Source: Anaerolineales bacterium (lineage in GTDB: Bacteria; Chloroflexota; Anaerolineae; Anaerolineales; Villigracilaceae). Taken from it: DNA of 41,530 bases. The stretch is taken from the NCBI GenBank assembly GCA_020847435.1, contig JADLBX010000020.1, positions 1 through 41,530 on the forward strand. The letters run 5' to 3'. The translations under genes and the position numbers were made by a program. The notes beneath the pieces are model-generated. The model did not search any database. It was not told the DNA's origin and worked only from the letters and a program-made list of their open reading frames with translations. This document shows, in pieces, positions 4,419 to 27,804 of the stretch. The number at the start of each line of letters is the position of its first letter. The stretch's first letter is position 1.

Positions 4419-6383
4419 TCATTTCTTCTTCCGCGCACTCGTCTTTTTCTTTGCCATAGTCTTCCGAGCAGACTTCTTCGTCTTCCGCTTGGCAACTTTC
4501 TTCTTTCTCGTCGGCTTCAATTTCTTCGATGAAACTTTCTTTGCCGGTTTGCGAATTGGCTTTTTGGCGGATTTCTTGACGGCTTTTGCTTTCTTCGTCT
4601 TTTTGCCAGCCGCTTTCTTCTTCCCTGGAGATTTCTTTTTTGCAGGCGCGGAGACCAGAACGGCTGACTTTGTCGAGGCGGGGGAGGAGGTCCACTTTTT
4701 GATGAGGGAGGGGAGTTTAACGAGCAGGGACTTTACCGCTTCCGCCGCGTTGGCGGCTTCTCCGCTTTGTTTCGGGAACATCACATTGTGATAGATGGAA
4801 TACATTTCATAGGCAAACAGACTTTCAAGAATTGACTCGTCGGTCAGTGGGTAATTCACGCCGAAGGCATAATTTGCGATTGCCAGCGCCGACATGAGCG
4901 CGCCGTCCTCTGAGTCAACTGTGGTGTTGTTGCCCGCAAAGTAGACGTTGGTATTCATCTGCCCGGGGTATGAGATATTCCCAAGTCCTTGCGCCATGTA
5001 CAACTTTGTTTTTGGACCGTCCATCGCGGAAGGAGTCCAGCGTCCGTGAGTCCAGGGTTCGCTGAATAGCACTTTGCTCGGGTCGGGCACTTTCTGTCCT
5101 TTGGAGGGATCGGGGATGTATCCATACATCGTGAGATACAGACCTTCGGCATCGGGGTCGTTCAATACATTTTTCTGGATGTACGTGGTGAACGTGTCAA
5201 TCAGGTTGTAGTTGCCGTTGTCGCTGCCGGGCGCGTAATAGCCGTTGAATTGAAGCGTCTCTTGTTGCTGCATCAGGTCGGGCGAGAGCATCGTCGAATC
5301 GGTGTGGATGTAGCATTTGCCCCACAGCAGATCCCACGTCACGTGCGGACCCGAGGGCTGCATATCCGTATTTCGATAATCGCCGATGGGGTAATTGAAC
5401 TTCGGGTTGTAATACACGTTGTTCCAAAAATATTGGTTCTGCGCGTTGTTCAACATCTTCGAGTTCGTCCACATGTCGGTGGTTAACACGACCTTGTCGA
5501 ACGTCCGCGAGAGAATCGGCTTACTTCCGTTTTGGCTCCACTGCACGGTGACTTGACCTGTGGATTGATCCGTCCACACCGCGCTGACTTTGGAGTTAAG
5601 GATTAACGTGGACGGAGTCAACGACTGGGCGACCGCCTGCATCGCTTCGACCCACGATTGGGCGCCGTTCGCAAATCTCTGCCAGCCCGTGCCGGGTTTT
5701 GAAAAACTTCCAAGCGGGGTGGGGAAGCCCCACGATTGCGGCAGAGGCAAGGTGGCGAAGAGCGGGAACAAGTCCATGAAGATCGTGTCGTTGAGCAACG
5801 CGCTTCCGTAGCCGTTGATAATGCTCATGTACGGCGAAAGGATGTAGTTGATGAAATCGGTTTTGTTGAGGAAGGGAATCGGCGGGTTCGGGAAGAAAAA
5901 TTCTTGCAGGGTCTTCATCTGCCAGTCCACGAACAGTTCGGCTTCGATGAAATCTTGAAACGCGGCGATGTCGAATTTCATGTCGTCGTTGTAAAGCGCA
6001 AAGTTGGATCCTTGCTGATAGGCGGGGAAATTCCCCCAGTTCATCGGCTGACCGTTCAGGCGCGGGAACGCGGCGGAAATTTTCAACGCGTTGTAATCGT
6101 TCATCGGCACACGCTGTTGGAACTCAGGTCTTTGCAACATGACGTGCACGCTCGGGTACATCATCGGCGAGATGAATTGCACGCCGATGTCGATCGGCAA
6201 CTTCTTATTCGGCTTGCCCGGCGCGGGGACGTAATACGTGAGCGAATGTCCGCCAACCGAAGGCTGGTCGTGGATGAGAGTCACGTTCCATTCCTGACGG
6301 GCGGCTTGGTCCTGCGAAAGCGCCCACAACAAGGCGACGCCGGTCGCGCCCCCGCCGACGATGCAGACATTTTTCTTTGCCAT
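4419..6383 (-). CDS. FAD/NAD(P)-binding amine-oxidase-type oxidoreductase with lysine-rich C-terminal tail
   Basis: This 654-residue protein begins with a Rossmann dinucleotide motif (VCIVGGGATGVALL) followed by the NAD_binding_8/amine oxidase pattern. It carries FAD-domain features such as IGVQFISP and, near residue 490, YFAGNNTTVDSEDGALMSALA, the C-terminal FAD-contact region. The substrate is unknown. The last ~76 residues are a low-complexity basic tail (40 Lys/Arg, with Ala, Ser, Thr, Pro), like histone H1 or AlgP tails and in frame with the enzyme. ATG 6383 was chosen because GAGGAGA lies just upstream; an in-frame extension to 6431 would run through the hairpin at 6414. It may be a cytosolic enzyme that binds DNA, RNA or another polyanion. 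Confidence 0.75.
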   Translation of the reverse strand: MAKKNVCIVGGGATGVALLWALSQDQAARQEWNVTLIHDQPSVGGHSLTYYVPAPGKPNKKLPIDIGVQFISPMMYPSVHVMLQRPEFQQRVPMNDYNALKISAAFPRLNGQPMNWGNFPAYQQGSNFALYNDDMKFDIAAFQDFIEAELFVDWQMKTLQEFFFPNPPIPFLNKTDFINYILSPYMSIINGYGSALLNDTIFMDLFPLFATLPLPQSWGFPTPLGSFSKPGTGWQRFANGAQSWVEAMQAVAQSLTPSTLILNSKVSAVWTDQSTGQVTVQWSQNGSKPILSRTFDKVVLTTDMWTNSKMLNNAQNQYFWNNVYYNPKFNYPIGDYRNTDMQPSGPHVTWDLLWGKCYIHTDSTMLSPDLMQQQETLQFNGYYAPGSDNGNYNLIDTFTTYIQKNVLNDPDAEGLYLTMYGYIPDPSKGQKVPDPSKVLFSEPWTHGRWTPSAMDGPKTKLYMAQGLGNISYPGQMNTNVYFAGNNTTVDSEDGALMSALAIANYAFGVNYPLTDESILESLFAYEMYSIYHNVMFPKQSGEAANAAEAVKSLLVKLPSLIKKWTSSPASTKSAVLVSAPAKKKSPGKKKAAGKKTKKAKAVKKSAKKPIRKPAKKVSSKKLKPTRKKKVAKRKTKKSARKTMAKKKTSARKKK

Positions 6384-6413
6384 GACGATTCTCCTCAATT
6401 GAATTTCTGGCTT

Positions 6414-6442
6414 CGTGGGGCGGGATGCCATCCCGCCCCACG
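6414..6442. terminator. Perfect 14-bp hairpin between genes
   Basis: Left arm CGTGGGGCGGGATG (6414-6427) and right arm CATCCCGCCCCACG (6429-6442) are exact complements around one base. It sits 4 bases past the stop of the small membrane protein gene and 30 bases before the FAD gene start. No clear T tract follows on the minus strand, so it may attenuate or process rather than fully terminate. It may also be a dispersed palindrome. Confidence 0.55.
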
Positions 6443-12802: not shown

Positions 12803-13642
12803 CTACGGGATTTGCCCCGCCGGGGCAGAGATCGGCGGGACGGTTTCCACGGCAGTCTGTTCGATGGTCACATACTTGTAGGCGCCGAAGAGCATGATCA
12901 CGGTAAAGGCGGCGGCGAGAGGGTAGAACACGGTCAAACGCTTGCGGAGGGTTGCCGCGTCCGGCTTGCGGTCCGTGATGCCGGCTTTGATCGCCTCCAG
13001 TTCGAGCGGGTGGTCCTCTTCCATTGCCGCCTCTGAAAGTTTGCCGGTAAACATGGCGTTGTTCACGCGCTTGATGCGGACGTGATACATGTGCCAGACG
13101 AGGATGGCGAGTACCGCAAGCGCCGCTTCGCCTCCATGCGCGGCGCGGGCGGCAGGATAAAACTCACCGGGCAGGTACTTGAATGAGACGACCGGGTTCC
13201 ACATAATGAAACCGCTGACTGCCATCACCGTGTAGCCCCACACGAACGCCCAATACTCGAATTTTTCCTCGAAAGTATACCGTCCCATTTTGGGCGGACT
13301 TTTTGCAAAGCCGAGGTTATAGAGCAAAGCCTGCAAGCCGTCCTTCATATCCTGCGGATACAACATCATGGACCACTTGGAGCGCAGGACGAAGACTTGA
13401 TAGGCAATGGTCAGCAAATGGTAGGTGACCGCGAACATCACGATCACCGTGCAGACGTGGTGAATCTTGTACAGGTTTTCGATCCCGCCGAGCGTCTGCG
13501 TAACGAACACGCTGAGCGGCGAGAACGGATATTTCTGCGGCAGTCCCGTCGCGGCGAGGAGGATGAACGTGCTGAGAAGCAAAATATGCTCGATGCGCCT
13601 CGATAACGGGAAGCGTTCGTAATAAACGGTTTTGGCGCTCAT
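12803..13642 (-). CDS. Cytochrome b-type quinol-oxidising membrane subunit (FdnI-like)
   Basis: This 279-residue protein has about five transmembrane helices and the layout of formate dehydrogenase/thiosulfate reductase-type cytochrome b. Likely heme-b ligand His residues are in RRIEHILLL, KIHHVCTVIV, TYHLLTI and WHMYHVRI. The family passes electrons between the menaquinone pool and an extracytoplasmic redox partner. ATG 13642 overlaps the stop of the nine-heme cytochrome gene (ATGA), so the two are translationally coupled and probably form one complex. The much longer upstream in-frame extension would lie inside that gene. The C-terminal ~25 residues are a Pro/Ala-rich outer tail. Confidence 0.8.
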   Translation of the reverse strand: MSAKTVYYERFPLSRRIEHILLLSTFILLAATGLPQKYPFSPLSVFVTQTLGGIENLYKIHHVCTVIVMFAVTYHLLTIAYQVFVLRSKWSMMLYPQDMKDGLQALLYNLGFAKSPPKMGRYTFEEKFEYWAFVWGYTVMAVSGFIMWNPVVSFKYLPGEFYPAARAAHGGEAALAVLAILVWHMYHVRIKRVNNAMFTGKLSEAAMEEDHPLELEAIKAGITDRKPDAATLRKRLTVFYPLAAAFTVIMLFGAYKYVTIEQTAVETVPPISAPAGQIP

Positions 13643-14826
13643 GCTTTCTTGGCTCCTTTCGCGCGGTTGACCCTTCGGCGGTAGATGTCGGTGATGACGA
13701 AGAAGAGCATACCGCCGATCACCGCCGGGATGAAGATCTTGTAGAACAAGTTCACGTAATAAGCGATCGGCTGGTGCGTGGGCGACGCCAACCGATGACC
13801 GAGCCACGCGCCGGGGAAATTTTCGGTCGCGTCGGGGTGACAACGCTGGCATCTTTCGAGCAGGTTGGCGCGTAGGGCGGCGCCTTTGACCGGGTCGTCC
13901 ACGTTGGCGATGTCGTGTACGCCGTGGCAATCGAAGCAGACCGCTTTGTTCGTCTCGCCATCGGGGAATTGCTCGCTGAAGAGTTTGACGTTCGTGCCGT
14001 GGAAGTCTGCCACGTAGGTTTCGTACACATCGGTCGAGATGTCGTATTTATCCATGATCGCGGGATCGTCATGGCAATCGGCGCAAAGGGCGGGCGAGGT
14101 GTTGCGGAATAACGGAGTGGTCGGGTCTTCGATGTTGTGCACGCCGTGACAATTCGTGCAGGACGGCACGTCGAGATTGCCTTCTTCGGTCAGCGCTTTG
14201 CCGTGCACGCTGTCTTTGTAGGCGTCGTATTTTTCCAAATGACATTGGGCGCACGTTTCAGGCACGTGGATGCGCGCCGAGATCGTCAACTCGCCGCTTT
14301 CTTTGCCGATCAAGCGTCCCTGCGTGTGCGGGTTGTGGCAACTCGTGCACAGCGGCGCATTTTCTTTGTCTTCGTTCAAGGCTTGGGCGTGGACGCTATC
14401 CGGCGCGACTTCGTATTGATCTTCATGACATTCTTTGCAAGACTCGGCAAAGCTCAGCGAGAACGCGCGGGCGCTGGTTTCTTTCACTTCGGGGTGAGGA
14501 TAGTCGCTGATTTCCGTGTGGCAATCCACACACGCGACCTCCTCTTCATTGTGAACGGACAAGCCGAACGCGACGGGGTTGATCGTCACCGGCAGAGATT
14601 CGGCGCCGAGGGTGAGCGTGAGTCCCTTTTCTTGATGACATGCCAGGCAAAAATCGTTGGAGGTCTTGTCCTCCTGGAAGTGACCGGGCGCGGCTTGGGC
14701 GGGCGCGGCCGCCGAGGCGAGGGCGTAGAGCAAAAGCCCAAATCCGAGAAACAGGCTGACCCTGCGTATGAACGGAAGGTAATCGCTCCAGCGGGGAGGC
14801 GAGTGCTGTGGTTTGATCGGTCTCAT
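13639..14826 (-). CDS. Nine-heme membrane-anchored cytochrome c
   Basis: This 395-residue protein has an N-terminal hydrophobic segment (about 24-45, possibly cleaved after AQAA), then nine CxxCH heme c sites: CLACH, CVDCH, CKECH, CTSCH, CAQCH, CTNCH, CADCH, CFDCH, CQRCH. A C-terminal transmembrane helix (about 360-382) and a Lys/Arg-rich cytoplasmic end follow. This is the layout of c3/NapC-superfamily electron-transfer cytochromes that take electrons from a cytochrome b partner. It is the middle gene of a three-gene operon. ATG 14826 has AGGAGTT upstream. No catalytic CxxCK site (as in NrfA) is present, so it is probably a conduit. Confidence 0.88.
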   Translation of the reverse strand: MRPIKPQHSPPRWSDYLPFIRRVSLFLGFGLLLYALASAAAPAQAAPGHFQEDKTSNDFCLACHQEKGLTLTLGAESLPVTINPVAFGLSVHNEEEVACVDCHTEISDYPHPEVKETSARAFSLSFAESCKECHEDQYEVAPDSVHAQALNEDKENAPLCTSCHNPHTQGRLIGKESGELTISARIHVPETCAQCHLEKYDAYKDSVHGKALTEEGNLDVPSCTNCHGVHNIEDPTTPLFRNTSPALCADCHDDPAIMDKYDISTDVYETYVADFHGTNVKLFSEQFPDGETNKAVCFDCHGVHDIANVDDPVKGAALRANLLERCQRCHPDATENFPGAWLGHRLASPTHQPIAYYVNLFYKIFIPAVIGGMLFFVITDIYRRRVNRAKGAKKA

Positions 14827-14941
14827 GAACAACTCCTGAATCGTCGCGCTCGGATTCGAAAGCGGGATGTGAAATACAAAATTACAGTTGGCGCGGCAGG
14901 TCAAATGCCGCGCCAACGTTTCAACTTTTCTTGCGTTGCAG

Positions 14942-17125
14942 TTATGGCCGCGTGTAGCCGCTCACGTCGCCGCCGAGGTCTGCGATCGAATCGATCAGGA
15001 ACTGGATGACAAACTTCGGGTTGTGGACGTATGCGCCCGGGTCTTTCTGGACGTATTGGTAGTTGAACGCGGCTTTGACGAGGCGCGGCGTCCATGCGGC
15101 ATAGGCTTTACCGTCTGCGCCAAAGTAGTATGGATAGGCGTGTCCGTCGTAGGTGAGCGCGCCGCCGTGCGCCTCGGCGTAGACTTGCATCTGGGCATAG
15201 AGCGCCTCGGCAAGCGTGGCAACTTCGCCGCTCATGCCTTCCTGCGCATCGCCGTCGCCGTCGTAATCCACTTCGGTTTCGCGGATCGTTTTCGGGTCGG
15301 CGGTGTCGTGGCAGGTTTCGCAGGATTCCACTTTTGGTTCGAGCGCGTGCACGTCGTGACAGTCCTGGCACTTGTTGGCTTTGCCCTCATCGGAGGCGTG
15401 CAGGTTGCGGCTGACGTATTCCTTGCCTTCGTACATGTACGCGCCTTGCACTTCCGCGCCGAAGAGCGTGGCGCCTGCGGCAAAGTAATGGATGTTCTTG
15501 AAGCGGATCTTCGCGTCCACCGTATCGAGTTCCTTGCCGCGCAGGGCGTTGTTCATGCTGGTGGTGGACTCGCGTCCCTGATGGCACGAGATGCACAAGT
15601 TCGAATCGTCGGGCAGGAAGTTACCGTCCGCATCCTGTCCGCCGTAGCTGACGGTCTTGCCGCTGGGGAAGACGACCGAGTTGACCGAGTAGCGATCTGG
15701 GAAGGATTCTCCGTTGTGGCAGGTGGTGCACATGAAGCCGTTGCTGGCCGGCATGGCGCTCAAGCCGACGATCTGCGTCGTGCCGCTCGAGGTGACGAGC
15801 GTTGTCCCGCCGTCGGTGAGATAGGCTGGCAACCCAGTAGCGGTGTGACATTTCACACAACCAAACGGCACGGTGCCGTTGCCTTCTTCCTCGGCATCCC
15901 AATGACGGAAGGGTTCGGTGTTACCGGCGAAGTGACCGGCATCGGTGCGGGCAAGTTTGTTGGTGTCGCCGCCGAGGTCGGCGATCGAATCGTAGAGCAA
16001 CTGCACGATGTATTTGTTGCCGTGCGCGTACGCGCCGGTGTCTTTCAACGAGACTTGATAGTTATACGCGGCTTTGACGAGGCGCGGCGTCCATGCGGTG
16101 TACCCGTTCGGGAAGGCAGTTTCGCCGTCGTCCACTTCGCCGTTGGCGTTGGTGTCAATGAAGAAATACGGATATGCGTGGGCATCGTAGACGAGCGCCG
16201 CGCCGGCGGTCTTGGCGGAATATTTTTGGATCTCGGCATACAGGATATCTTGTAAGCCTTCGATCTCGTAATACATGCCTTCTTTCACATCGCCGTCGCC
16301 GTCGTAATCGCGCGCCGAGCTGACCATCCGTACCGATTTGAGATCGTCAACGGTTGCCACATCTTCGTGGCAGTTCGCGCAGTCCTGCACTTTGACTGCG
16401 AGTGTGTGCGGGTCATGACAACCGACGCACGAATCATAGCCGTCCACGTGTGTGTTCTTCGAGTCATAGGTGAGCCCGTCGTATTGATATCCGCCCATGG
16501 TTTTGCCGCCGTAGAGCGTTGCCGCCGCCGCGTAATAATGCACATTGCGGAAGCCGAAGGTCACATCGTTGCCCTGCGCGTCCTTGATCGGTGCAACGAC
16601 TTCATCCGGGTTGGTCGCGCCAAATTCTTCGATCTGCTTATCAACGCTCACCTTCGATTCGCGCCCCTGATGGCATTCCATACAGCGGACATCGTCGCCC
16701 GCGGAAATCGTTACCCCCGATGGGAAAGTGACAGTGGTTTTGGAAATGGTGACCGGGTTATGGCACGCCGCGCATTGGACGCCTTGCGCTTCTTTCGCAG
16801 GGACGGCTGATTCGACCTTGCCAGCCTCGCTCCCATCCGCGCCGATGAAATCCTCATAGCCTGCGCTGGTGTGACATTTGGCGCAAAACACCGGTACCTC
16901 CGCTGGGTCTTCCGCGTCCCAATGGCGGAAGGGTTCGCCATCAACGTCCGCGTGCCCGCCGGATTGCCAATCTGCGAGATAGGGCGTTTCTGGAACGAGC
17001 GCTGGCGCCTCTGTGGGCGCAGGCGGTTCGGTCGGCGCGGTGGTTGGGGTTGTACCACAAGCGCTGATAATGACGCCAAAGATCACGAGCGCCCCGACGG
17101 TGATTAGCAGGTTCTTTAATTTCAT
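14942..17125 (-). CDS. Ten-heme cytochrome c lipoprotein made of two pentaheme halves
   Basis: This 727-residue lipoprotein (lipobox ISAC at about residue 22, then a Thr/Pro/Ala linker) has ten CxxCH sites: CAKCH, CAACH, CMECH, CVGCH, CANCH, CVKCH, CTTCH, CISCH, CQDCH, CETCH. The two halves (about 40-385 and 390-727) repeat the same landmarks: FRHWDAE, CxxCHNxxxF, FPSGxTxS, CHQGRES, RNxHYxAAxAT, DYDGDGDxxEG, TPRLVKAAxNYQ and IADLGGD. This points to a tandem duplication. DYDGDGD and DTNANGEVDDGE resemble calcium-binding loops. It is probably the outward-facing electron acceptor or conduit of the operon. ATG 17125 has GGGAGA upstream. Function beyond electron transfer is unknown. Confidence 0.88.
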   Translation of the reverse strand: MKLKNLLITVGALVIFGVIISACGTTPTTAPTEPPAPTEAPALVPETPYLADWQSGGHADVDGEPFRHWDAEDPAEVPVFCAKCHTSAGYEDFIGADGSEAGKVESAVPAKEAQGVQCAACHNPVTISKTTVTFPSGVTISAGDDVRCMECHQGRESKVSVDKQIEEFGATNPDEVVAPIKDAQGNDVTFGFRNVHYYAAAATLYGGKTMGGYQYDGLTYDSKNTHVDGYDSCVGCHDPHTLAVKVQDCANCHEDVATVDDLKSVRMVSSARDYDGDGDVKEGMYYEIEGLQDILYAEIQKYSAKTAGAALVYDAHAYPYFFIDTNANGEVDDGETAFPNGYTAWTPRLVKAAYNYQVSLKDTGAYAHGNKYIVQLLYDSIADLGGDTNKLARTDAGHFAGNTEPFRHWDAEEEGNGTVPFGCVKCHTATGLPAYLTDGGTTLVTSSGTTQIVGLSAMPASNGFMCTTCHNGESFPDRYSVNSVVFPSGKTVSYGGQDADGNFLPDDSNLCISCHQGRESTTSMNNALRGKELDTVDAKIRFKNIHYFAAGATLFGAEVQGAYMYEGKEYVSRNLHASDEGKANKCQDCHDVHALEPKVESCETCHDTADPKTIRETEVDYDGDGDAQEGMSGEVATLAEALYAQMQVYAEAHGGALTYDGHAYPYYFGADGKAYAAWTPRLVKAAFNYQYVQKDPGAYVHNPKFVIQFLIDSIADLGGDVSGYTRP

Positions 17126-17204
17126 GCGGCATCTCCCTTTAATCGATCTCTCAATGGATGTTGATGTTGCCAGATCGTGCGAACCGTTCAAAATACAAGC
17201 AATG

Positions 17205-17360: not shown

Positions 17361-17810
17361 TCAGGGATAACTGGCGTAGACTTGCTGGCTTCCATCCGGG
17401 AAGAACAAGATCACGTTGTATGGTTCGGGCGCGACGCCGGCGGTTTCCATGCCGGGCGAGCCGATGGGCATCCCCGCGACCGCCAACCCGATGGCGTTCG
17501 GTTTTTCGCTCAGCAGGCGGTTGATCTCTGAAACAGGGACGTGACCTTCGATCACATAGCCATCCACGATGGCGGTGTGGCAAGACTGGAGTTCTGCGGG
17601 AACTTGATACCGAATTTTGATCGGCGTCAGATCTTGTACATTTTCGACCGCGGCTGAAAAACCGTTCTCTTCAATGTACGCGACCCAGTCGCCACAACAG
17701 CCTCAGGTGGGCGAGCGGTAGACGGTGACGGCAATGCCGTCCGCTTTGCCCGACCCGCAGGCAGACAGCGCCAGTGCGAGCAGGGCGATAACGATGAGTG
17801 TTTTCTTCAT
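17361..17810 (-). CDS. DUF411 lipoprotein with in-frame TGA at the first motif Cys (selenoprotein candidate)
   Basis: Read through one TGA, this is a complete 149-residue DUF411 protein, a family tied to copper/metal handling. It has a lipoprotein signal (MKKTL, hydrophobic core, lipobox LSAC, Cys18), then YRSPT at 31-35, TGA as codon 36 (17705-17703), and GCCGDW at 37-42. Family members read CGCC here. The rest is intact: VPAELQSCHTA (Cys77, His78), GYVIEGHVP (84-92), GMPIGSPGME and a C-terminal strand region. Only the first Cys codon of CGCC is changed, so Sec36 is possible; a nonsense mutation (TGC/TGT to TGA) or a sequencing error is the alternative. The gene starts 10 bases after the UbiA stop, last in the operon. 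Its own stop is also TGA. Confidence 0.75.
17680..17705 (-). promoter_or_regulatory. Candidate bacterial SECIS hairpin after the TGA
   Basis: Fifteen bases after the TGA, the mRNA can form GCGAC-UGG-GUCGC: five perfect base pairs with a three-base loop that has G at its second position. A flanking UGU/ACA pairing is possible. Bacterial SECIS elements are short hairpins at about this distance with a G early in the loop. The stem is short and the distance is at the lower limit. Confidence 0.4.
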
Positions 17811-17820
17811 ATTTTCCTTT

Positions 17821-18729
17821 CTATGCGAGTAAGAATCCGATGCCCGCGCCGAGCGCGAACAAAAGGAACGTGAGCAGTGTCTGCGCTTGCGCGGGGACGA
17901 TCGCGCTTGTGGTTTCAGGGTTTTGAATCAATCGCCGTGCGGCTGAATACGCGGGGATAACGGCGATCAACCCCAGCCAAAGGGGGAGAGGAAATTGAAA
18001 GAGCGGCAAGACAGCCAAACCGGCGAAGGTCAGAACGAGAGTCCCCAGGTAGAGTCGGCTGGCGGCGCGGCGTCCCAGCCGCACGACGAGAGTCCGCTTG
18101 TTGGCGGAGCTGTCCGCGTGAAAATCTGGAAATTCGTTGATGAGCAGGAACAACCCGATGAGGAGACCGAGCAGGGTTGAAACTGCGAGGAGCTCGTTTG
18201 AAAGCGCGCCGCGTTGGACGAGATAGGCGCCGACGGCGATGAGCGGTCCGTAACAAGCCGCCACGGCAACTTCGCCCAGCCCGCGATACGACAGTTGAAA
18301 CGGGGGCGCGTGATAAAAAAACGCAAGCGCCATGCCAACCGCGCCGACCCATAAAATGGACGGTTCGCGCCAGAGAACGATGGACAGCCCGGCGATGCCT
18401 CCCAGCAAATAACATGCCAGCGCAATTGCCGCAGTTTGATTTTTTGTCAGCAGGTTGTCCACCAGTACGCGCTTGCCGCCGGAGAAGGGGGAGCGGTCTT
18501 GCTCTTGCACCGCCTGATCGTTGCCGCTGTTCCAATCGAAGATCTCGCCGGAGGCGTTTTTGGCGACCTCGATGGCGAAAATTCCCACGACGGTGACAGC
18601 CAGCCAGCCGAAGTGAAGCGCGCCGTCTGCCGCCGCGGCGCACGCGCCGAGGAACATCGAAGCGAAGGAGGCGAGGGAGATCTTTGGGTCGGCGAGGCGC
18701 CAGAAGCCTTGCAAGAATTTCGATTTCAT
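17821..18729 (-). CDS. UbiA family prenyltransferase
   Basis: This 302-residue protein has about eight or nine hydrophobic helices. Two Asp-rich regions are visible: KNASGEIFDWNSGNDQAVQEQDR (split: NASGEIFDWN, then NDQAVQEQD) near residue 65-85, and NEFPDFHADSSANKRTLVVRLG near 205-225. The latter is the second DxxxD prenyl-diphosphate/Mg site of the UbiA superfamily. SGGKRVLVD follows the first. It transfers a polyprenyl chain to an aromatic acceptor in the membrane, presumably a quinone precursor given its neighbours. It differs clearly from the MenA-like pair at 20298 and 33574. ATG 18729 lies 4 bases after the methyltransferase stop. Confidence 0.85.
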   Translation of the reverse strand: MKSKFLQGFWRLADPKISLASFASMFLGACAAAADGALHFGWLAVTVVGIFAIEVAKNASGEIFDWNSGNDQAVQEQDRSPFSGGKRVLVDNLLTKNQTAAIALACYLLGGIAGLSIVLWREPSILWVGAVGMALAFFYHAPPFQLSYRGLGEVAVAACYGPLIAVGAYLVQRGALSNELLAVSTLLGLLIGLFLLINEFPDFHADSSANKRTLVVRLGRRAASRLYLGTLVLTFAGLAVLPLFQFPLPLWLGLIAVIPAYSAARRLIQNPETTSAIVPAQAQTLLTFLLFALGAGIGFLLA

Positions 18730-18733
18730 CGCG

Positions 18734-19444
18734 TTATTTTTGAATGACCACTTTTTGGTACAAATCGCCAAACAGGGTCTCTTTCCGAATGTGCGACGGG
18801 GTAAACCCGCTTGGGAGCCACTCTTCAATTTCGTGTTTCCAGGTGTCGAGGGCAAAGGGTTCGAGCAATTTGAACAGGAGCGGATAAAAATATCGGAAAG
18901 GATTCCACCAGCGCGGTTTGTGAAAGTCCACGATCACTAACTTGCCGCCCGGCTTGAGGACGCGCAGCGCCTCGCTCAGGGTTTCTTTTCGGGCAGTTGT
19001 GGGCATTTCGTGCAGGAGGAAGAACAGGATCGCCTGTTCGTACGCGTTGTCTGCCGAGAAATCGAGGGCGGTGGCGTCGCTGAGGAGGATGCGCGTGGGC
19101 GCGCCGATCGGGAGTTTGCGGCTGACGTTTTCGAGTTGGATGGGAAGCACATCTATAATGTCGAGCGCGCCGCCGTCCGCGATCTTTTTGGCGAGGCGTG
19201 CGGAAAAATCTCCATATACGCAAGCCACTTGCAGGGTGCGCCCGAAAATCTTTTCGCCAAGTTCGGCCAGGGCGCGGTCGCGCAGTTTCTCGAAGTTGCC
19301 CCACAGGATCATGTTGATGATCCATTTCCGTTCGAAGAAGATCACCGCCCCGGGATGAATATATGCCCACCAGTACGCGTCCTTTAGGTAGGTTGGAATC
19401 GGAATCGTTTGATCCGGGTGTATCTGGTGAATTGAGGCGTCCAT
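18734..19444 (-). CDS. RquA-like class I SAM-dependent methyltransferase family protein
   Basis: This 236-residue protein reads YWWAYIHPGAVIFFERKWIIN (split: YWWAYIHPGAV, FFERKWIINMILWGN), LQVACVYGDFSARL, IIDVLPIQLENVSRKL, ILFFLLHEMP, RVLKPGGKLVIVDFHKP, and a C-terminal LLEPFALDTWKHEIEEW. From memory this matches the rhodoquinone biosynthesis protein RquA better than UbiE/MenG, especially the YWWAY N-terminus and the CVYGD motif I. RquA converts ubiquinone to rhodoquinone using SAM as amino donor. It sits between sdhD and a prenyltransferase, a fitting place for a low-potential quinone used in fumarate reduction. Chloroflexota normally use menaquinone, so the substrate may differ. Start ATG 19444 has AAGGGA. 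Confidence 0.7.
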   Translation of the reverse strand: MDASIHQIHPDQTIPIPTYLKDAYWWAYIHPGAVIFFERKWIINMILWGNFEKLRDRALAELGEKIFGRTLQVACVYGDFSARLAKKIADGGALDIIDVLPIQLENVSRKLPIGAPTRILLSDATALDFSADNAYEQAILFFLLHEMPTTARKETLSEALRVLKPGGKLVIVDFHKPRWWNPFRYFYPLLFKLLEPFALDTWKHEIEEWLPSGFTPSHIRKETLFGDLYQKVVIQK

Positions 19445-21992: not shown

Positions 21993-22262
21993 ATGGAAAC
22001 CGAACACACACTCCGCCGTTTAAAAACCATCGAAGGACACCTGCGCGGCGTCATCCGCATGGTGGAAGAGGACGCGTACTGCATTGACGTCATCCGTCAG
22101 ATTCAGGCGGTGGATGCCGCGTTGAACAAGGTCAGCGCCCAGATTCTGGAGAACCACCTGAATTCGTGCGTCATCACCGCAATCCAGGGCAACGATAAAA
22201 AGGAACGCCAGCGTGTGCTGAAAGAAATCACCGAAGTCTTCGAGATGTCCGCGAAGGTGTAA
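21993..22262 (+). CDS. csoR: CsoR family copper-sensing repressor
   Basis: This 89-residue all-helical protein carries the CsoR Cu(I) ligand set: Cys in AYCIDVIRQIQAVDAAL, His and Cys in ENHLNSCV. The order C-H-C with HxxxC spacing is that of copper-responsive members rather than RcnR or FrmR. The N-terminal RLKTIEGHLRGVIRM is typical. Apo-CsoR represses its operon and Cu(I) releases it. It is the first gene after the promoter/operator, with GAGGAA before ATG 21993. It should control the cupredoxin, chaperone and P-type ATPase genes downstream. Confidence 0.9.
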   Translation: METEHTLRRLKTIEGHLRGVIRMVEEDAYCIDVIRQIQAVDAALNKVSAQILENHLNSCVITAIQGNDKKERQRVLKEITEVFEMSAKV

Positions 22263-22288: not shown

Positions 22289-22714
22289 ATGTTGAGAAAG
22301 ACCGCTGTGTTAATGTTTATTCTTTTGACGCTCGCCGCTTGCGGCGGCAAATCGGCGGCTCCAGCCACCGAAATTACACTGGAGGAAACCGATTTTTCGT
22401 TCAGCCCGGATACGATCACCGTGCCTCTCGGCAAACCGGTGACCTTGACCATCAGGAACGGCGGGGTGGTGGAGCACGACTTCGGCGTTCAGAAGATTGG
22501 CGTGAGCGACGTGTCCATGGGACATGAAGAAGGGATGAGCCACGACATGGGCGCGATGGATTTGGATTTGCATGTCGCTACCCAGCCGAACGGCGTCAGC
22601 GCCATTACGTTTACGCCAACGGAAGCGGGAGAATATGAATTCTTCTGCTCGGTTCCCGGGCATAAAGAAGCCGGCATGATGGGAAAACTGACCGTCGTTG
22701 CCGCTGATCAATAA
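22289..22714 (+). CDS. Cupredoxin-domain lipoprotein
   Basis: This 141-residue protein starts with a lipoprotein signal (lipobox LAAC, about residue 18). The plastocyanin-like domain carries type 1 copper ligands: His in VVEHDFG and C-X4-H-X4-M in FFCSVPGHKEAGMMGKL. A Met/His-rich loop (MGHEEGMSHDMGAMD) between them may bind extra Cu(I). It is anchored outside the membrane, where it may store copper or carry electrons. It starts 26 bases after the csoR stop with AGGAGAG upstream, so it belongs to the copper operon. Confidence 0.88.
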   Translation: MLRKTAVLMFILLTLAACGGKSAAPATEITLEETDFSFSPDTITVPLGKPVTLTIRNGGVVEHDFGVQKIGVSDVSMGHEEGMSHDMGAMDLDLHVATQPNGVSAITFTPTEAGEYEFFCSVPGHKEAGMMGKLTVVAADQ

Positions 22715-23001: not shown

Positions 23002-25125
23002 ATGACATCGCAACATTCCGACCATCAACAGCACGATCACGGCGCAATGACTCACGAAAAGCCGACTGAGAGTCAGGCAGGTCTTCACGCGGGACATGAC
23101 ATGCACGCGCAACATACCGCCGCTTCCACAGGTTCAAGCGCCCATGCCGGGCATGTGGATCACAGCGGGCATGAAGAGATGTTCCGCCGCCGCTTCTGGG
23201 TTTCGCTTGTGTTGAGCGTTCCCGTTTTGCTGTATACGCCCATGCTCCAAATGTGGTTCGGCTTTGAGATGCCCGCGTTCATGGGCAGTCAATGGATCGC
23301 GCCGCTCTTCGCGGTGATCGTCTTCATTTATGGTGGAATCCCGTTTCTTCAAATGGCGGCGCCTGAGATTCGCAATCGGCAACCCGGCATGATGCTGTTA
23401 ATCTCGCTGGCGATTTCGGTCTCGTTCATTTACAGCCTCGCCGCGTTGTTCTTCAATCTTGGCGAGGGATTCTTCTGGGAACTTGTCACACTGATAGACA
23501 TCATGCTGCTCGGTCACTGGATCGAGATGCGAAGCGTTCGCCAAGCCTCGGGCGCGTTGAACGAACTTGCCAAATTGATTCCCGATACAGCCGAACATCT
23601 CATGCCCGATGGCAGTGTTCACACCATGCCCGTTTCTTCGTTGAAAGCAGGCGACCTCGTTCTCGTCCGTCCTGGGTCAAGCGTCCCGGCGGATGGAATC
23701 GTCGAGCAGGGCGAATCGGACGTCAACGAATCTATGATCACGGGCGAATCGGCGGCGGTGAAAAAAATCGCTGGCTCGAAAGTCATCGGTGGGACGATTA
23801 ACGTAGACGGCAGTCTGCGCGTCCGGGTCTCTGCAACGGGCGAGCAAACCGCGCTCGCGGGCATCATGCGCCTTGTCGCCGAAGCGCAGAAAAGCAAATC
23901 GAACACGCAAATTCTGGCGGATAAAGCCGCGGGCTGGTTGTTTTATCTCGCGATTGGCGTTGCCATGCTCACAGCGATTCTGTGGACGGCGGCAATTGGT
24001 TTCGATCTCTTCACGTTGGAACGCGTTGTCGCTGTTTTGGTGATCGCCTGTCCGCATGCGCTGGGGTTGGCTGTTCCGTTGGTGGTGGCGATCAGTACCA
24101 CGTCCGCGGCGCAGAACGGGATTCTCGTCCGCAATCGTTTGGCGTTGGAAGCCGCGCGTGAAATTGACGTGATCATCTTCGATAAGACTGGCACATTGAC
24201 GAAAGGTGAGCAAGGCGTGGTGGCGATCAAAACAAACGGCGTGGATGAAAACCACGCGCTTGCTCTCACTGCGGCGGTTGAGGGTGATTCGGAACACATC
24301 ATCGCGCAGGCATTACGTAAAGCCGCGCGAGACAGAAATTTACAAACGATGGCTGTATCCGATTTCGAAGCGATCAAAGGACGCGGCATTCACGCCAAAC
24401 ACAACGGCAAAGATATTTGGGTCGGCGGTCCGCGTTTGTTGGAAATGCTCGACGCGAAACCTGACGCGGGATTTTTGGACTTCGCTTCATCCGCAGGGAA
24501 GAAGGGGCAAACCGTAGTCTACCTGATCGTAGACCTGAAAGTTTTCGCCGCCTTCGCGCTGGCGGATGTGATTCGCCCTGAAAGTTTTGAAGCGATAAAG
24601 AAATTAAAGGAAATGAATATCCAAGTCGCCATGTTGACGGGCGACAGCAAAGATGTTGCAAAGGCTGTTGCAGACGAACTTGGCATTGACCTGTATTTTG
24701 CCGAGGTCCTGCCTGAGCATAAAGATGAAAAGGTAGCGGAGTTGCAAAAGCAAGGCAAGCGCGTCGCCATGGTTGGCGACGGCGTGAACGACGCGCCCGC
24801 GCTGACCCGCGCCGACGTGGGCATTGCCGTCGGCAGCGGCACAGATGTGGCGGTTGAATCGGCAGGCATTATTTTGGTGAAGAGCAATCCGCTCGATGTG
24901 GTGAAGATTTTCAAGTTAAGCCGCGCAAGTTATAACAAGATGATTCAAAACCTTGTCTGGGCTTCAGGCTACAATATCGTGGCTCTGCCCTTGGCAGGCG
25001 GCGCGCTGGCTTCGCTGGGAATTCTATTGTCGCCCGCAGTAGGCGCGTTGCTCATGTCACTCAGCACTGTGATCGTTGCGATTAATGCTCAAACTTTGCG
25101 CCGATTGAATCTTGGCGGAGTTTAG
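23002..25125 (+). CDS. copB: CopB-type P1B copper ATPase (CPH motif)
   Basis: This 707-residue P1B-ATPase has a His/Met-rich N-terminus (first ~60 residues) instead of an HMA domain. Eight transmembrane helices follow. The metal motif is CPH (350-352, in [12 protein letters not shown]), the actuator loop has MITGES, phosphorylation is at DKTGT (Asp394), and the hinge has [11 protein letters not shown] pumps (P1B-3) export Cu(II)/Cu(I) or Ag(I) across the membrane with ATP. It begins 44 bases after the chaperone stop. The CPC-type pump follows, giving the operon two export systems. Confidence 0.9.
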
Positions 25126-25223: not shown

Positions 25224-25280
25224 CCACGAATTTTGACCACGAATTCACGAATTTGAGTCGCACATTCGAGAATTCGTGAA
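25224..25280. repeat. CACGAATT-type inverted repeat
   Basis: CACGAATT motifs recur at 25225, 25238 and 25246, and TTCACGAATT (25244-25253) pairs perfectly with AATTCGTGAA (25271-25280). It lies in the 249-base gap between copB and copA. No CsoR-type operator or clear promoter for copA is visible in this gap. Confidence 0.55.
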
Positions 25281-25374
25281 GTATTCGCGGAGGGTACGCC
25301 AACCCCAAAGCCACCCTTGCGCTGGATTGAAGCAAAGATCGAATTTTCAAAAAATTCAATTCATACGGAAAATA

Positions 25375-27804
25375 ATGTCCGACACCAAACAACTCACTCT
25401 CCCCATCACAGGCATGACCTGCGCCAACTGCGTGGCGACCGTCGAGCGCAATTTGAAAAAACTCGATGGAGTGAACTCAGCCGTCGTAAACCTTTCGTCC
25501 GAACGTGCCACGGTAGATTTTGACTCTGCCAAACTCGGGCTTACCGACATGATCGCGCGCGTCCAACGCGCGGGATATGGAGTCGCCACAGGCGAAGCGG
25601 AACTCATCATCAAGCGCCTCGCCGACGACAACGACGCGCGCCGACTCGAAAAAGCCTTGCTCAAACTCGACGGCGTCCTCGAAGCGCAGGTGAATTATGC
25701 CAGCGAAAAAGCGCGCGTGACTTATGTGCCGACCATCGTCGCACAAACCGAGTTGCGCCGCGCTGTCACCGACGCGGGCTTTGAAGCGGTCGAACTTGGC
25801 GGCGAAGCGGAAGATGCGGAAGCCATAGCGCGCGAACACGAGATCAACGAGCAACGCCGCTTGTTTATCATCGGCTTGCTTTTCACCGCGCCGCTTTTCG
25901 TTTTTTCAATGCTGCGCGACTTCAACCTCCTCGGGCATTGGGCGCACGACGCGTGGGTCAACTTCGCAATGATGCTCGTCGCCGCGCCCGTGCAGTTTTA
26001 CGTCGGTTGGCAATATTATGTCGGCGCGTATAAATCGCTCCGCAACGGCTCCGCCAACATGGACGTGCTCATCGCCATGGGCTCCTCGGTCGCATACATT
26101 TACTCAATATTCATCACATTCGGGATCATCTCAGGTCACGTCTACTTTGAAACTGCGGCAGTCATCATCACGTTGATTCGACTCGGCAAATATTTGGAAG
26201 CGCGCGCAAAGGGACGCACCTCGGAGGCGATCAAAAAGTTGATGGGACTCCGCGCCAAGACAGCCCGCGTCATTCGCGACGGGGAGGAGGCTTCAGTTTC
26301 CATTGACGATGTGCGCGTCGGGGACATCGTGCTCGTCAAGCCTGGCGAAACGATCCCCGTAGACGGCGTGGTGATCGAGGGCAAATCCAGCGTGGACGAA
26401 TCCATGCTCACAGGCGAATCGCTTCCCGTTGAAAAGAAACAAGGCGACGCGGTCGTCGGCGCGACGTTGAACAAACTTGGCTCGTTGAAATTCGAAGCGA
26501 CAAAGGTTGGCAAAGAGACCGCGCTCGCGCAGATTATCAAACTCGTTGAAGACGCGCAGGGAAGCAAAGCGCCGATTCAAAAACTCGCCGATCAAGTTTC
26601 GGCGGTGTTCGTGCCGATCGTCATCGGCATCGCGCTGTTGACTTTCGCAGGCTGGTATTTCATCGGCGACGCAGGTGACTTGACGCGCGCGTTGATCAAC
26701 ATGGTGGCAGTTCTCGTGATCGCCTGTCCATGCGCGATGGGACTCGCCACGCCAACTGCGGTGATGGTTGGGACAGGCAAAGGCGCGGAGTTGGGTGTGT
26801 TGTTCAAAAACAGTGAAGCACTCGAACGCGCGGGCAACGTGAACGTTGTTGTGCTTGATAAAACAGGGACGATCACAAAGGGTCAACCCGCTGTCACAGA
26901 CATAATTACCAATCACCAATTACCAATTACAAATAACGAACTACTGCGCCTTGCCGCGTCCGTCGAAAAAGGAAGCGAACATCCTCTCGGCGAAGCGATC
27001 TGGGCGGAGGCGACAAGTCGCGGCTTGGGTTTGGCGGAGCCCGTCGGGTTTGCGGCAGAGCCGGGGCATGGTGTGCAGGCTGAAGTCGAGGGAAGAAGCG
27101 TTGCCGTAGGCAATATCCGCATGATGAACGCGCGGAACTTTTCCCTGAACGGACTCGAATCCGAAGTGGCGCGTTTGCAATCCGAAGCGAAGACGGCGAT
27201 GCTGGTTGCGATTGATGGCGAGGTCGCTGGCGTGATCGCCGTTGCAGACACGTTGAAGGAAAATTCAAAAGCGGCGATTGGCGAACTGCATCGCATGGGC
27301 TTGAAGGTTGCGATGATCACGGGCGATAACCAAAAGACCGCTGAAGCGATTGCGAAACAAGTTGGTATTGATGAGGTGCTCGCAGAAGTTTTGCCCGAGG
27401 GTAAATCCTCCGAAGTCAAAAAACTCCAACAATCGCCAATCGAAAATCGTCAATCGAAAATCGTAAATGTAATTGCGATGGTTGGCGACGGAATCAACGA
27501 CGCCCCCGCGCTCGCGCAAGCGGATATCGGCATCGCAATCGGCACGGGAACCGATGTTGCCATTGCCGCCGCGCCCGTGACGTTGATGAGCGGCGACTTG
27601 CGCGGCGTGGCGCGCGCCATTTCGCTTTCACGCAAGACGCTTGCGACGATCAAACAAAATTTGTTCTGGGCGTTTTTCTACAACGTGATTCTGATTCCCG
27701 CCGCCGCGCTCGGTTGGTTGAACCCGATGCTCGCCGCAGGCGCGATGGCGTTCAGCAGTGTGTTCGTGGTGACGAATAGTTTGCGGCTGAAGGCGTACAA
27801 GTAG
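25375..27804 (+). CDS. copA: CopA-type P1B copper ATPase (CPC motif)
   Basis: This 809-residue Cu(I)-exporting ATPase has a first HMA domain with GMTCANC (Cys16/Cys19). A second HMA-like domain (about 72-140) has the CxxC cysteines replaced by Asp (ADDND). The transmembrane metal site is CPC (451-453), the actuator has MLTGES, phosphorylation is at DKTGT (Asp495), and the hinge has GDGINDAP. Two heptamer tandem repeats are embedded in frame at about residues 512-521 and 686-699, in loops of the catalytic domain. ATG 25375 fits the family N-terminus; the ribosome-binding site is weak (GGAA). It may be transcribed separately from copB, given the 249-base gap. Confidence 0.92.
26908..26935. repeat. 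Heptamer tandem repeat inside copA (1)
   Basis: Units ACCAATC, ACCAATT, ACCAATT and ACAAATA repeat with a 7-base period and encode the atypical [11 protein letters not shown] segment shortly after DKTGT. The local base composition is AT-rich compared with the rest of the gene. Confidence 0.7.
27431..27472. repeat. Heptamer tandem repeat inside copA (2)
   Basis: Six units of AATCGNN (last unit degenerate, AATGTAA) encode [12 protein letters not shown] just before the GDGINDAP hinge, where CopA proteins usually have only a short Lys/Gly turn. The reading frame is kept. Confidence 0.75.

Follow-up and report, generated by a model that had tools for sequence, protein, structure and literature searches.

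A candidate selenocysteine codon at the predicted copper motif of a DUF411/CopG gene from an Anaerolineales bacterium

A gene of the DUF411 family lies on the minus strand, at 17361-17810, of a 41,530-nucleotide stretch from an Anaerolineales bacterium (assembly GCA_020847435.1, contig JADLBX010000020.1, positions 1 to 41,530; this whole stretch is called the window). Its reading frame is interrupted by a single TGA. Does this codon end translation, or is it read as selenocysteine (Sec)? A first-pass annotation, made from the letters of the window, had proposed a selenoprotein. This candidate is supported here, and the checks that could be run came out in its favour. We put at roughly 0.9 the probability that this is a DUF411/CopG gene with its UGA read as Sec, giving a U-G-C-C site that likely binds copper.

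The DUF411 gene and its internal TGA

The gene starts with ATG at 17810, ends with TGA at 17363-17361 and encodes 149 residues. Its only internal stop is the TGA at 17705-17703 (codon 36), in the context SPT-TGA-GCC, where relatives have the first Cys of CGCC; from the frame and the homologues this codon is a predicted selenocysteine. Frame reading and the alignment to the CopG chain 6wis confirm what had been claimed at first pass, a DUF411 lipoprotein frame open except for one TGA at the first Cys of SPTCGCC. The U-G-C-C motif (17694-17705, minus strand) would correspond, judged by the same alignment and by database homologues, to the CGCC (CxCC) copper motif of CopG. Also as claimed, the motifs on both sides of the TGA are intact, namely the lipobox LSAC18, W42, SCHTA, EGHVP and GMPIGSPGME.

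When a residue is placed at the TGA, the product matches Pfam DUF411 (PF04214) with an E-value of 2.2e-27 and a score of 94.9 bits (cut-off 27). In NCBIfam only weak N-terminal matches, of the lipoprotein-leader type, were found. A signal peptide with the lipobox LSAC is predicted at 17757-17810 (minus strand), with a helix at residues 3-18 in the structure model, and the product would thus be exported and lipid-anchored. In an alignment of 62 proteins, C77 and H78 (SCHTA) and H90 (EGH), encoded within 17541-17582, as well as M114 and M121 of GMPIGSPGM (17448-17471), all on the minus strand, are invariant in 62 of 62. The proteins were drawn from those bearing CGCC, so that the invariance of columns 36-39 is by choice, while that of the other columns is not.

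Within its family of bacteria the gene is found in 8 of 152 genomes, all of them in the same genus (8 of its 18 genomes), i.e. there are orthologues in seven other genus genomes. The order UbiA, DUF411, multihaem cytochrome is common to all eight loci. At this syntenic locus the motif codon is TGA in five species and TGC in three. Each of the five genes with a stop has this single TGA at the motif codon, and no other stop and no frameshift is present in any of the eight genes. The comparison of homologues suggested at first pass therefore came out as expected for a selenoprotein, with TGA or Cys in the same column.

The ratio of nonsynonymous to synonymous substitution rates (dN/dS) over codons 37-149 (113 codons) is 0.06-0.13 for all ten pairs of the five TGA genes, pairs that are not independent of each other. 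The codons after the TGA are thus under strong purifying selection, which means that selection acts on this part as protein.

Distribution of the TGA form and the selenocysteine machinery

A scan with the DNA pattern PT-TGA-GCCxxW, covering a single genome for each species of bacteria and archaea, gave at least 117 loci. A locus was counted when its frame through the TGA matched DUF411 at 80 bits or more. Among the 117 matches listed, 91 are DUF411 frames with TGA at the motif codon, 22 are not DUF411, and four were left uncounted. One of the 91 (L064) is a contig of the sister genome G016, the same contig as L021; hence there are 90 other loci. Five matches run off the end of the stretch examined, and L123 and L156 have a stop just before the motif; the remaining frames begin well ahead of the motif and continue to a stop. 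The pattern misses some cases, since L172 is a Sec form with PS in place of PT. At L153 the pattern matches twice within an 8 kb stretch, the second match being a possible second copy or a chance hit.

By NCBI labels the 91 frames belong to Chloroflexota (23), Acidobacteriota (21), Pseudomonadota (15), Gemmatimonadota (11), Myxococcota (8), Rokuibacteriota (5), Campylobacterota (2), Methylomirabilota (1), Tectimicrobiota (1) and Actinomycetota (1), with three unlabelled. The TGA form of DUF411 spans at least eight phyla. We say at least eight because Rokuibacteriota and Methylomirabilota may be one phylum, and because the Actinomycetota bin sits among Acidobacteriota in the tree described below.

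Do the hosts have the means to insert Sec? This was examined for 50 loci, selected manually from the 90 outside the sister genome so as to cover the groups, and ahead of any result. selA is present in 49 of the 50 hosts, 47 times above the cut-off and twice as pieces, and a tRNA-Sec in 39 (E <= 1e-9, strict filters). The same searches in 14 control genomes gave selA above the cut-off in one and tRNA-Sec in three. Among the more than 5200 bacterial genomes of a published survey, 21.5% use Sec (PMC5029168).

The TGA could still be a true stop in a decaying pseudogene, or a sequencing error, and what follows it could be dead or expressed as a start-over fragment. Two observations fit this. Of the best 120 among 7887 database homologues, 16 are short pieces of 89-107 residues that begin after the TGA (one is named 'DUF411 domain-containing protein', Anaerolineales bacterium), and at L069, L113, L123, L138 and L156 the frame is broken or shortened around the motif, by assembly errors or in decaying copies; L138 shares its bin with the intact L082. 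However, the TGA is at the same codon in five genus genomes and 90 other loci, three TGA loci come from named strains and not from metagenome bins (two Helicobacter, and Parendozoicomonas callyspongiae with locus L125, in whose genome both selA and tRNA-Sec are present), and a start-over fragment would lack the signal peptide, the first strand and the first motif residue. Together with the low dN/dS in genus genes that have no other internal stop, and with selA in nearly all tested hosts, this recurrence led us to reject the pseudogene and the sequencing error, which we regard as very improbable. The short pieces bear out another claim of the first-pass annotation, that gene calling would truncate this gene.

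The rest of the best 120 homologues consist of 86 with CGCC, three with another Cys motif, and 15 metagenome proteins with W at the first Cys (P0003, P0006, P0007, P0009, P0018-P0022 and six others). The last group could mean that UGA is read as another amino acid, either as Trp by a change of code or as Cys or Trp by a near-cognate tRNA. When the motif residue is masked, TGA loci are the nearest relatives of 14 of the 15, so that TGA was apparently rendered as Trp by some gene callers. It would follow that gene callers either cut the gene or apparently read its TGA as Trp, and the latter is possibly a general trap for selenoproteins.

Against another amino acid speak the Cys in homologues and the presence of the Sec machinery, and TGA also serves as a stop, in 8 of the 24 window open reading frames (ORFs) checked and in 41 of 96 Sec-gene matches. 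The statement that neighbouring genes end in TGA was wrong for the two direct neighbours, which end in TAG and TAA, but right for these 8 of 24 long, hand-picked window ORFs. As these ORFs and the DUF411 gene itself stop at TGA, the earlier conclusion that TGA is not reassigned stands. Code reassignment is rejected on these grounds, and we see very little chance for any amino acid other than Sec.

The assembly that contains the window (as contig C20) has 3.05 Mb in 74 contigs and is 88.6% complete. It holds one tRNA-Sec above the Rfam cut-off (67.4 bits), which ARAGORN also calls as SeC with anticodon tca, and complete copies of selA (547 bits) and selD (351 bits). By profile match and frame reading, this selD (genome G000, contig C36, 83764-84696, L016) itself carries an in-frame TGA, at CAG-U-ASK. 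The known Sec site of SelD is given as UxxK in a 2026 inventory of prokaryotic selenoproteins (PMC13188914), and the TGA of the selD is at this site, so that at least two selenoproteins are predicted for this genome. One and the same machinery would read both UGAs; unlike the DUF411 gene, SelD is of a known selenoprotein family. At the DUF411 gene, the UGA at the first Cys codon of the metal motif would be read as Sec by way of tRNA-Sec, SelA, SelD and likely SelB.

selB was not found in this assembly. It is above the cut-off in 17 of the 18 genus genomes, ours being the sole exception, and tRNA-Sec is present in 18 of 18. In five relatives (L025-L028, L038) selB is flanked by a coiled-coil gene and by a gene starting MCGRFTL, and neither was found in our assembly, in a search without positive control. 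As the neighbours did not turn up either, an assembly gap best explains the missing selB, and the genome likely has SelB. A match on contig C7 was considered as selB and rejected: it is an ORF of 100 residues that covers SelB positions 175-257 only, and a similar match is present in the one-contig sister genome G011 beside a full selB. The Sec machinery proposed for checking at first pass was thus found with respect to tRNA-Sec, selA and selD, while selB was seen only in the 17 other genus genomes.

How common are stops elsewhere in the family? In a sample of 400 Chloroflexota genomes there are 9 DUF411 matches, 7 of them strong; of these, three have one TGA and four have no stop. The three are our own genome, G011 and G503, and in G503 the TGA is again at the motif. 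In 398 Pseudomonadota genomes a DUF411 match is found in 195. Among the matches listed nearly all are without a stop and four have one TGA, of which one is a known Sec locus and two run to the terminal codon of the query. Where the Sec form is rare, so are stops inside DUF411.

Further, a tree was built over 123 columns, the Sec/Cys column being masked, from 91 Sec and 79 Cys rows; many of its forks are left open, and its Cys database rows number 75 plus the PDB chain. It omits L064, L123 (with its stop upstream of the motif) and the three cut pieces L106, L107 and L151. This tree needs 18 changes between Sec and Cys, against a mean of 56.5 after shuffling, and its strong branches force three. 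Judged by the tree, Sec and Cys have been exchanged several times; no direction can be read from it.

Some of these results, beside the missing selB, weigh against reading the UGA as Sec. L123 and L156, with their stop shortly before the motif, are among the 91 frames, and the four uncounted loci (L069, L089, L113 and L138) are cut or broken pieces. One of the 50 tested hosts, L115 (CP070792.1, Gemmatimonadota bin1440), has neither selA nor tRNA-Sec among the hits, and ten further hosts have no tRNA-Sec at the strict setting. In addition, two homologues among the Pseudomonadota matches listed have one TAA, which is unexplained. For L115 an incomplete bin, contamination and a stranded Sec gene are the options.

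The hairpin downstream of the TGA

If the UGA is read as Sec, a selenocysteine insertion sequence (SECIS) should follow it. A five-pair hairpin had been reported as starting just after the TGA. The five pairs exist, as GCGAC-UGG-GUCGC at 17680-17692 (minus strand, found by folding), but the hairpin starts 10 bases past the TGA and its loop 15 bases past it. In the bacterial SECIS (bSECIS) model, as given in the inventory, a loop of 3-9 nt is carried by a stem of 4-16 bp, with a G in the first two loop bases, at 16-37 nt from the UGA (PMC13188914). The main hairpin of the window, with its spacing of 15, is one short of this range. The sister species have a hairpin in another register (ACUG-GGUU-CAGU).

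The Sec genes were compared with 30 Cys controls, which remain from 37 loci after removal of five without the searched motif and two near-copies. The rows are related, so that all p-values of this comparison are too small. Counting the T of the TGA as 1, a hairpin of bases 18-24 with 28-34 and a loop at 25-27 forms six or all seven of its pairs in 47 of 95 Sec genes versus 5 of 30 Cys genes (p 0.0014), and 43 of these 47 have a G in the first two loop bases. Base 22 covaries with base 30 in the Sec genes (odds ratio 6.2, p 1.2e-4, 93 genes) versus an odds ratio of 1.3 in the Cys genes (p 1.0, 29 genes). Base 22 is the first base of mostly Val, Ile or Met codons, and base 30 is the silent third base of a His or Tyr codon. 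The bSECIS model fits 76 of 95 Sec genes versus 17 of 30 Cys genes (p 0.016). When the TGA genes of the genus are folded against synonymous shuffles, four of five fold better than the shuffles, with z-scores of about -1.8 to -2.1, and L019 has -0.2; the window's own hairpin beat each of 20 shuffles.

Other results weaken the case for a SECIS element. The window agrees with the bSECIS model only through a second hairpin, at a spacing of 35, and the five-pair hairpin is not conserved in the sister species. Folding energy relative to synonymous shuffles does not separate the 95 Sec from the 30 Cys genes (p 0.14). More than half of the Cys genes fit the model as well, as do 70% of the synonymous shuffles of Sec genes and 59% of those of Cys genes. 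The check for a SECIS proposed at first pass is thus answered in part: a bSECIS-like hairpin is present and such hairpins are enriched relative to Cys homologues, but the enrichment is weak. We regard a SECIS element downstream of the TGA as likely, with modest support from the sequences.

CopG relatives, copper and the surrounding genes

By sequence and modelled fold the protein belongs to DUF411/CopG. Chain 6wis of the copper resistance protein CopG is the one solved relative by sequence (E-value 2.9e-30), with its CGCC aligned to UGCC, and the structure model fits the CopG fold at 1.2 A over 125 residues. With CopG of Pseudomonas aeruginosa (DUF411, PDB 6WIS/6WJE) and the homologue CutG it shares family, fold, CxCC motif and Met pair, and the CopG/CutG family is linked to copper genes. 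Unlike in CopG, the first Cys of CxCC is a UGA, predicted to be Sec, the signal is of the lipoprotein type, and the host is related to Anaerolineales. In the CopG literature the two Met are described as copper ligands, and a tetranuclear copper cluster is described for P. aeruginosa CopG only. The combination of CxCC and two Met is present here (UGCC, M114, M121) only if Sec may replace the first Cys. The metal or redox role proposed for the site at first pass fits the CopG family, and by analogy and from the model selenium at the motif would likely bind copper.

In our proposal the U-G-C-C site would replace the C-G-C-C of CopG in a thioredoxin-like copper-thiol oxidoreductase outside the membrane. 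UGCC and the two Met would hold a copper cluster, and the site might tune Cu(I)/Cu(II) so that the cell tolerates copper or can pass it on; a selenolate would make it softer and more reducing. A more specific version is that the selenolate is a ligand of a CopG-type tetracopper site, with Cu-Se bonds, and that its use has arisen or been kept repeatedly across phyla, with Sec/Cys swaps at one locus, since selenium improves extracytoplasmic copper redox handling. We lean towards this version, though only just.

The copper side of the proposal has evidence against it. In Rhodobacter capsulatus, the oxidase CutO matures without need of the Cys and Met motifs of CutG (PMC8456105). The copper genes of the window are encoded on the opposite strand, 4 kb from the DUF411 gene, which is flanked directly by genes for a prenyltransferase and a cytochrome. 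When the surroundings of the TGA loci were searched with the copper proteins of the window, 14 of 91 loci had copper neighbours. Copper genes are the most frequent kind of neighbour yet few, and among near neighbours they account for 4, 4 and 3 of 95. The protein could be a selenoprotein whose site, UxCC in a thioredoxin-like fold, is mainly a thiol/selenol redox centre and not a copper cluster. It resembles Sec-thioredoxin and Sec-glutaredoxin (UxxC) in having such a fold and in the place of Sec, in the motif ahead of the fold's first helix. Unlike these, it has UxCC and a Met pair, and CopG is a far better match by sequence and fold. We find a mainly redox site rather unlikely and prefer copper binding by U-G-C-C.

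Other predicted Sec proteins are known to handle metals. The inventory has the SO_0444 family Cu/Zn efflux transporter (UxC), CopZ-family (2Fe-2S) proteins (GxUC, CU) and E1-E2 ATPase (UxxC) (PMC13188914). They too have a predicted Sec at a putative metal motif, but they are of other families, none of them DUF411/PF04214. DUF411, PF04214, CopG and CutG are not among the 119 families and subfamilies in the table of that inventory (PMC13188914). No paper on DUF411 as a selenoprotein was found in a search that left most subscription journals and all preprints outside, so an earlier mention is possible, and none on selenocysteine in CopG/CutG among the literature found, by titles and abstracts.

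The gene would add a widespread predicted selenoprotein family, one without an NCBIfam model match and with public gene calls that truncate or apparently mistranslate it. If the reading is true, selenium use is tied directly to copper handling, with Sec standing where a copper motif is known from a structure. The natural pairs of Sec and Cys orthologues at one locus would make it possible to measure what Sec gains over Cys when it serves a copper site.

The neighbours of the gene in all eight genus loci, used as synteny markers, are the UbiA prenyltransferase upstream (17821-18855, minus strand) and the multihaem cytochrome c of 749 residues downstream (14942-17191, minus strand). The cytochrome genes directly downstream extend over 12803-17191 (minus strand), and a functional link of the Sec gene to an electron-transfer cluster is possible. 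The copper genes are all on the plus strand: a CsoR-type metal-sensing repressor (21993-22262), which forms no operon with the DUF411 gene, a cupredoxin-domain protein (22289-22714) and two P-type ATPases (23002-25125 and 25276-27804), of which the latter carries heavy-metal (HMA) domains. Elsewhere in the window, an ORF of 670 residues at 4419-6431 (minus strand) has a Lys/Ala-rich, histone-H1-like C-terminal tail.
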